Part shown: piece after piece, positions 59,740 to 62,397 of the stretch
How positions within the stretch are numbered: the stretch's first letter is position 1
Layout of the letters: each line of letters starts with the position of its first letter
DNA from: Solimonas sp. K1W22B-7
GTDB taxonomy: Bacteria; Pseudomonadota; Gammaproteobacteria; Nevskiales; Nevskiaceae
DNA length: 64,000 nucleotides
Direction of reading: 5' to 3'
NCBI RefSeq assembly: GCF_003428335.1
Contig: NZ_CP031704.1
Location: forward strand, 4,538,071 to 4,602,070
The notes under the pieces: generated by a model
Databases searched by the model: none
Told to the model about the DNA's origin: nothing
The model's input: the letters and a program-made list of their open reading frames with translations, nothing else
Made by a program: the position numbers and the translations under genes

Positions 59740-60457
<718 letters not shown>

Positions 60458-60468
<11 letters not shown>

Positions 60469-61411
60469 AGAGAGCCTGCAGGTGCAGCCGCTGCCGCTGA
60501 TGCAGCGGCTCAGCCAGGAACACGCCCGCGTGTTCTTCTTTTCCCTGGGCAAGCTCGGCAAGAACCCGGTGGGCACCCTGCTGACGGCACTGGTGATCGG
60601 CGTAGCGCTGGCGCTGCCGGCCGGCATGCACGTGCTGACGCGCAACCTCAGCAAGATCTCCTACAGCTGGCAGGACTCGCTGCAGCTGTCGCTGTTCCTG
60701 AAGGACTCGGTCAGCGCCGAGCGCGGCGCCGCGCTGGCGCGCGAGGTCCGCGACCGTCCCGGCGTGCACGCCACCAGCTACATCTCGCGCGACCAGTCGC
60801 TGGAGGAGTTCCGCGCCCAGTCCGGCTTCGGCGAGGCGCTGGACATCCTCAAGGACAACCCGCTGCCGGCGGTGATCGCGGTGACGCCGGAGCGCGGCCG
60901 CAACAAGCTGCAGGTGGAAGTGCTGCTGGGCGAGCTGACGCGCCTGCCCGAGGTGGACCTGGCCAAGCTCGACCAGAAATGGCTGGAACGGCTCTACGCC
61001 ATCCTCGGCATCATCGACCGCGCGGTGTTCATCATCGGCCTGCTGCTCGGCATCGCGGTGGTGGTGACCGTGGGCAACACCATCCGCCTGGACATCGAGG
61101 CTCGGCGCGAGGAGATCAGCGTGATGAAGCTGATCGGCGCCCCGGACAGCTTCATCCGCCGCCCCTTCCTCTACACCGGCTTCTGGTACGGCCTGGGCGG
61201 CGGCGTGCTGGCGCTGATGCTGGTGCTGGTCGGCACCCTGGCCCTGTCCGGCCCCAGCCATACCCTGGCGGCCCTGTACGACAGCACTTTCACACTCTCA
61301 GGCCTGTCCTTCGGTGCCAGCCTGCTGCTGCTGCTGACCGGCATCGTGCTGGGCTGGCTCGGCGCCTTCATCACCGTGTGGCGCCACTTGTCTGGCATCC
61401 AGCCGCAGTAG
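60458..61411 (+). CDS. ftsX: Cell-division membrane protein FtsX
   Basis: The 317-residue permease has four membrane segments: one near residue 45, then three near 185-215, 238-260 and 285-307. The large periplasmic loop in between binds EnvC-type activators. It starts at a GTG inside ftsE. A GC hairpin follows its stop. Confidence 0.93.
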
Positions 61412-61412
61412 C

Positions 61413-61440
61413 CTTGAAAATCAGTGACTTGCGCCCCACT
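61413..61440 (+). promoter_or_regulatory. Possible sigma32 (heat-shock) promoter of rpoH
   Basis: CTTGAAA and CCCCACT are 14 bases apart, near the consensus CTTGAAA-N13-17-CCCCATNT. The -10 also forms the left arm of GCGCCCC-actg-GGGGCGC (61431-61448, then TTT), so the same bases may act as the ftsX terminator stem. Confidence 0.5.
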
Positions 61441-61469
61441 GGGGGCGCTTTGCGGAACTTCCAGAGGGC

Positions 61470-61496
61470 TTAGCACTCCAATCGGCCGAGTGCTAA
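61470..61496 (+). promoter_or_regulatory. CIRCE operator in the rpoH leader
   Basis: TTAGCACTC-N9-GAGTGCTAA, exactly the HrcA-binding CIRCE consensus with the standard 9-base spacer. It lies 28 bases upstream of the rpoH ATG and downstream of the possible sigma32 promoter. Confidence 0.95.
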
Positions 61497-61524
61497 CATG
61501 GCCTTCGTACAGGGAGTAGAACGC

Positions 61525-62397
<873 letters not shown>

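Follow-up and report, generated by a model that had tools for sequence, protein, structure and literature searches.

The leader of rpoH in this genome carries an exact copy of CIRCE, the operator of HrcA, embedded in what appears from its sequence to be a sigmaE (RpoE)-type promoter, and the two elements recur at a fixed spacing before rpoH in many gammaproteobacteria. We consider it probable that this leader is a composite operator-promoter, at which HrcA would block RNA polymerase and occupancy of GroEL would relieve the block. The window, i.e., the whole stretch of 64,000 nucleotides that was analysed, corresponds to C1:4538071-4602070 of a single-contig genome of 5.37 Mb. Around the leader the genes are ordered ftsE-ftsX-rpoH: ftsE (59740-60468) lies 5' of ftsX (60458..61411, + strand; open reading frame list and profile search), which is followed by rpoH, encoding sigma32 (61525..62397, + strand, 290 aa; open reading frame list). 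A sequence-only reading of this DNA had already named the gene rpoH, and the profile TIGR02392 agrees, scoring the product at 398 bits (cut-off 323); the closest named RpoH relatives, among the matches listed in one collection, belong to a Nevskiaceae metagenome bin (78%) and to Fontimonas thermophila (74%). A stretch of 113 nt separates the ftsX stop (61411) from the rpoH ATG (61525) and contains, from 5' to 3', CTTGAAA, an inverted repeat that includes CCCCACT, GGAACTT, the exact CIRCE and GGGAG, the last one being read from the sequence as the Shine-Dalgarno (61512..61516, + strand), 8 nt 5' of the ATG. A second ATG in frame with rpoH, at 61498, lies against CIRCE and has no visible ribosome site.

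The operator itself, on the + strand at 61470..61496 and 28 nt from the rpoH ATG, reads TTAGCACTC-CAATCGGCC-GAGTGCTAA, that is CIRCE (TTAGCACTC-N9-GAGTGCTAA) with no mismatch and a 9-nt loop, CAATCGGCC, as the sequence-only reading had claimed when it described a match at every base. That reading had also proposed to look for CIRCE elsewhere in the genome: a whole-genome scan found the rpoH site to be the sole exact copy and, with up to three mismatches, only two CIRCE-like sites, the second of which precedes groES and has 2 mismatches. Assuming independent bases at the composition of the window, chance would give 9e-6 exact CIRCEs over 5.37 Mb, and in a control with scrambled palindromes of the same composition, matches with up to five mismatches occurred in 56 of 6600 leader-scans. 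The repressor gene, on whose presence the earlier claim was made to depend, was found in the same genome (PF01628, E 3e-58; TIGR00331, 317 bits with a cut-off of 197), where hrcA is followed by grpE. Conservation in close relatives, the other point on which that claim had been staked, was observed as well, since CIRCE with up to four mismatches is kept before rpoH in 21 of 29 relatives. This relatives set comprises 31 genomes, from which 30 leaders were used (the window's own and 29), as one genome (G019) was without a fetched rpoH locus. Two leaders cut by contig ends (L023 and L082) were counted as lacking CIRCE in the conservation count, as was L017, whose CIRCE-like site before rpoH has an 8-nt loop. 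The comparison was extended to a named set, consisting of the best 80 of 586 confirmed matches and thus not a random draw, in which CIRCE was called with up to five mismatches within 300 nt before rpoH; L046, with five mismatches, and L089, with four, were counted as CIRCE-bearing.

Besides CIRCE, the most constant feature in the leaders of the 29 relatives and of the window is GGAACTT, which mostly ends 9 nt 5' of CIRCE. Here it occupies 61454..61460 on the + strand, ending 9 nt before the operator, and leader comparison and promoter scan mark it as a sigmaE-type -35. The corresponding -10, TCCAA (61477..61481, + strand), proposed from leader comparison and loop-position counts, is made up of the final TC of the CIRCE left arm and of CAA from the loop, and lies at a spacer of 16. 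The whole element, GGAACTT-N16-TCCAA at 61454-61481, fits the form GGAACTT, 16-17 nt, TCNNA, which we take to be the consensus of sigmaE (RpoE) promoters, and rpoE is present in the genome (TIGR02939, 296.6 bits, cut-off 236). Each leader was then scanned against 100 first-order resampled sequences, with a call at p 0.05 or less, after dropping the two leaders cut by contig ends (L023 and L082), which left 29 in the relatives set, the window's own included, and 79 named leaders. A sigmaE-type promoter stood above resampled sequence in 26/29 and, for the named leaders from the best 80 of 586, in 52/79, the scan being no better than resampled sequence in the remaining 27/79. The sequence-only reading had missed this element and had given the key place to a sigma32-like promoter further upstream; judged from these sequences, the widely conserved promoter of the rpoH leader is of the sigmaE type and is not the sigma32-like box, both being present in the four leaders of the genus.

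The position of GGAACTT relative to the operator was examined in the 56 CIRCE-bearing rpoH leaders, 22 from the 30 of the relatives set with its own and 34 from the 80 named ones (best 80 of 586). GAACTT, with at most one mismatch, lies at offset 9 before CIRCE in 40 of the 56 (15/22 and 25/34, respectively) and at offset 10 in 3/22 and 2/34, while 16 of the 56 have no GAACTT at offset 9; none of 26 groES CIRCEs has it at offset 9 or 10. Moreover, among the 40 rpoH CIRCEs that have GAACTT at offset 9, 33 carry A at loop position 2 and 36 at position 3, and in the 16 others each of these positions is A in 10, whereas among the groES loops A is found at position 2 in 1/26 and at position 3 in 4/26. 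The loop A's are kept at rpoH and not at groES, as a sigmaE -10 would require. Across the class, GAACTT-N9-CIRCE with up to three mismatches occurs in at least 188 of 369 genomes, the window's own included, although not every match precedes rpoH: among the matches listed, 26 of the 30 loci read were rpoH. The exact pattern GAACTT-N(0-30)-CIRCE was found at 60 places in 59/369 class genomes (own included), with an offset of 9 in 39, 10 in 6, 8 in 2, 24-25 in 7 and other values in 6; all the 30 places out of 60 that were fetched as loci are rpoH, and the reversed pattern gave no match in the class genomes. In 6 of the 7 places with an offset of 24-25, CIRCE lies, by eye, just 3' of a TCNNA and not on it.

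A further putative promoter element enters the operator from the other side. The right arm of CIRCE, together with the following CAT, forms TGCTAACAT (61491..61499, + strand), a candidate sigma70 extended -10, for which TTAGCA of the left arm (61470-61475, + strand) is a possible -35 at a spacer of 18. The base counts after CIRCE point in this direction, with T at +3 in 52/56 rpoH leaders vs 0/26 groES leaders and AT at +2 and +3 in 40/56 vs 0/26, and the conserved TGCTAAnAT is likely a sigma70 extended -10. Nevertheless, this evidence is weaker than that for sigmaE, because the composition just 3' of an operator could be skewed by unrelated causes. Three rpoH leaders from one family of the order, f6, in which no hrcA was found (L032-L034), show by eye the boxes TTGCTATAAT, TTGCTAGACT and TTGCTAAAAT; lying at about the distance of the CIRCE right arm from the start codon, these could possibly be a seed or a remnant of the composite site.

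The presence of CIRCE before rpoH follows that of hrcA. In the named genomes (best 80 of 586), the operator was found in 32/34 with hrcA vs 2/46 without it, so that a site which the sequence-only reading had regarded as unusual in gammaproteobacteria is the common state among the hrcA-bearing genomes of this set. Fisher's test gives p 1.3e-17 with genomes counted as independent and kinship ignored, although relatives are not independent. On the RpoH tree, hrcA and the rpoH CIRCE change 9 times each, and the kinship-corrected comparison yielded 6 well-supported independent pairs, about 4.5 concordant, 0.5 opposite and 1.1 with no difference (median p 0.125), so the tree-corrected association is only suggestive. 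One family of the order has three genomes (G023, G026 and G029) with neither hrcA nor the rpoH CIRCE, and another has three (G020, G027 and G030) that keep hrcA with the rpoH CIRCE absent. The exceptions in the named set are L038 (an Abyssibacter bin) and L060, with hrcA and no rpoH CIRCE, and L065 and L108, both drafts, with the CIRCE and no hrcA detected; similarly, G009, a genome 79% complete, has an exact rpoH CIRCE and no hrcA was found in it. In Pseudoalteromonas sp. FUC4 (L103) the rpoH CIRCE is exact, yet the genome gave a single, weak match to HrcA (E 6e-9); its HrcA may have diverged, or CIRCE may be read by a different factor.

The leaders of groES and hrcA were compared with that of rpoH in the same relatives. 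CIRCE before rpoH has 0-1 mismatches in 19/30 leaders of the set, groES leaders carry it with 2-3 mismatches in 23/30 (up to three in 26/30), and hrcA leaders have none in 25/26, with one site in the remaining leader. The rpoH site is thus the closest to consensus in the set. Before hrcA of this genome, a CIRCE was sought and discarded, the best match having 7 mismatches.

In the mechanism that we favour, E-sigmaE would start rpoH from GGAACTT-N16-TCCAA, with a predicted start at about 61487-61489, and sigma70 polymerase would probably also start the gene from the overlapping TGCTAACAT. With HrcA on CIRCE (61470-61496), the start region, the sigmaE -10 and most of the sigma70 -10 would be masked, so that rpoH would stay shut as long as free chaperonin holds HrcA active. 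Once GroEL is engaged by unfolded proteins, HrcA would release the site, allowing the envelope-stress or the housekeeping polymerase to make rpoH mRNA; sigma32 would then raise the chaperones and HrcA would be restored. If HrcA blocks the polymerase in this way, chaperonin status would gate sigma32 synthesis. From the letters of the leader we infer HrcA binding, the start sites and repression, and the GroEL step also by analogy with reports on HrcA in other bacteria: in H. pylori, as in other bacteria, GroE raises HrcA binding, according to the excerpted text of PMC6032397, and by extension heat, which engages GroEL, would open the rpoH promoter. Against simple derepression, which would predict a rise, 10 min at 42 °C brought no significant change in the rpoH mRNA of S. 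maltophilia, and rpoE was up 5.9-fold in the same heat shift (PMC6479208, excerpted text). In three congeners of that species (L057, L065 and L106) the rpoH CIRCE has 2-3 mismatches, and GAACTT lies at offset 9 before it.

The circuit proposed in the sequence-only reading was a different one, in which RpoH would activate its own gene from CTTGAAA-N14-CCCCACT and HrcA would repress it; on the present map, HrcA would do so as a roadblock downstream, inside the leader. The letters and the spacing given for this box are correct (61413..61440, + strand; CTTGAAA at 61413-61419, 14 nt, CCCCACT at 61434-61440), and it matches 12/14 letters of CTTGAAA-N12-15-CCCCATnT, presumably the sigma32 promoter consensus. 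It stands above resampled sequence in 4/4 genus leaders, at p 0.03 or less, and CIRCE would begin about 23 nt into a sigma32 transcript. Beyond the genus, conservation was not found: at p 0.05 or less the box was called in 9/29 relatives-set leaders with the own included, i.e., 5 of the 25 outside the genus, three of the nine (L025, L027 and L030) being without CIRCE, and in 5/79 named leaders from the best 80 of 586, leaving 20/29 and 74/79 not above chance. On these counts the box was rejected as the main promoter for the family, whereas in the genus it may still act as one. Moreover, within the genus its -35 varies at its A's and the neighbouring sequence is, by eye, about equally conserved, while its -10 belongs to an inverted repeat, GCGCCCC-ACTG-GGGGCGC (61431..61448), read from the sequence 3' of the ftsX stop. 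Autoactivation thus appears unlikely, although it could coexist with the sigmaE/HrcA composite promoter; of the earlier circuit, the HrcA half stood, with hrcA present and the operator conserved and tracking it, and the RpoH half proved weak. The same repeat was considered as an ftsX terminator and set aside, as it is followed here by only three T's and no real T-run was seen by eye after it in the four genus leaders.

The other readings bear on the operator and on the promoter that overlaps it. Sigma70 acting from TGCTAACAT might be the sole promoter that matters, repressed by HrcA, with GAACTT a minor or silent relic; the bases conserved after CIRCE at rpoH and lacking at groES, as well as the similar boxes in the three genomes without hrcA, speak for it, but GAACTT and the loop A's at a fixed spacing class-wide would be unexpected for a silent relic, and we regard it as rather improbable. 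CIRCE might instead be a relic or a chance site unused by HrcA, in agreement with the mobile-element-like insertion in the hrcA leader of this strain; against a chance expectation as low as that given above, the retention of the site in most relatives and its association with hrcA, this is very improbable. Finally, CIRCE might work as an RNA hairpin affecting mRNA stability or translation of rpoH and not as a DNA operator, because transcripts beginning further upstream, for instance at the sigma32-like box, would include the inverted repeat. A sigmaE-type transcript, however, would carry the right arm only, which would make CIRCE a DNA element; each arm agrees with the operator in every letter, beyond mere pairing, and the predicted sigmaE transcript is less stably folded than 199/200 shuffles, which makes the hairpin hardly credible. 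An RNA thermometer or other known RNA was likewise discarded, as the single Rfam match is far below the gathering score and the fold is worse than that of shuffles.

In E. coli, rpoH is driven by a sigmaE promoter (P3). The leaders of enterobacterial rpoH genes resemble the present one in showing GAACTT and a TCNNA-like -10 (e.g., L072), and differ from it in that the enterobacterial genomes examined have neither hrcA nor CIRCE. Repression by HrcA and activation by sigma32 are commonly presented as two parallel systems, and the recurring layout before rpoH in many gammaproteobacteria suggests that the two heat-shock systems are wired together. With the control of groESL and dnaK operons by HrcA and CIRCE in H. 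pylori and others, this leader shares the type of operator and its place near or over -35 and -10 (PMC6032397, excerpted text); here, by contrast, the target is a sigma factor gene and the operator letters would double as the sigmaE -10. The nearest precedent is Geobacter sulfurreducens, in which CIRCE was predicted before rpoH (Rodionov et al. 2004, Table 8; PMC545781). As here, the site is exact (position -51) and hrcA is in the genome, which also has sites at groESL and hrcA-grpE-dnaK-dnaJ (PMC545781). On the other hand, this is a deltaproteobacterium, the sole species of that study with rpoH in the excerpted table text, the site is a prediction, and the excerpted text names no sigmaE promoter or overlap for rpoH (PMC545781). 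In the literature passages searched, no report of CIRCE before rpoH other than PMC545781 was met. What appears new is that CIRCE is embedded in a sigmaE-type rpoH promoter at a constant distance and that this arrangement is widespread in Gammaproteobacteria, neither of which was met in the literature passages searched. A study by Permina and Gelfand (2003/2004; doi 10.1159/000077248) deals, to judge by its title, with the regulons of sigma32 and HrcA in beta-, gamma- and epsilon-proteobacteria, and may already list rpoH.

We propose tentatively, as a conjecture held with less than even confidence, that in HrcA-keeping gammaproteobacteria rpoH, and not groESL, is the strongest conserved HrcA target, that operator and core promoter form a single unit in which the sigmaE -10 and the extended sigma70 -10 are both provided by the CIRCE arms, that HrcA serves as a chaperonin-sensing brake on sigma32 synthesis and that loss of HrcA in enterics left a bare sigmaE promoter. 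If so, this brake would be a transcriptional counterpart to known E. coli controls, less than 50 bp would receive three stress inputs (envelope, chaperonin load and heat sigma factor), and the control of rpoH would be explained in those gammaproteobacteria that, unlike E. coli, keep HrcA.

Some minor observations concern the operators and the hrcA leader. In the groES leaders (L004 and L170-L198), the left arm is asymmetric and ends in GCAGCC in 21 of 26 CIRCEs, 16 of which have exactly TTAGCAGCC as this arm, and this shared departure from consensus may tune HrcA binding at groES. A symmetric variant with both arms altered, TTAGCAGTC-N9-GACTGCTAA, is found in the rpoH leaders L039, L057, L106 and L108, whose hosts are Pseudoxanthomonas, Stenotrophomonas and a Lysobacterales bin, and also in L028, from the family of the window; such arms may represent a matched shift in HrcA specificity. 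Before hrcA of this strain, L003:901-1174 (G000:C1:2516580-2516853) is taken up by an element of about 275 bp, which is bounded by 33-nt terminal inverted repeats (97%) and separates a genus-conserved stretch from the hrcA ATG (L003:1177). It looks like a MITE-type insertion, which could alter hrcA expression in this strain; it is absent before hrcA in three genus-mates, and three further near-full copies, at 88-91%, are present in the genome.
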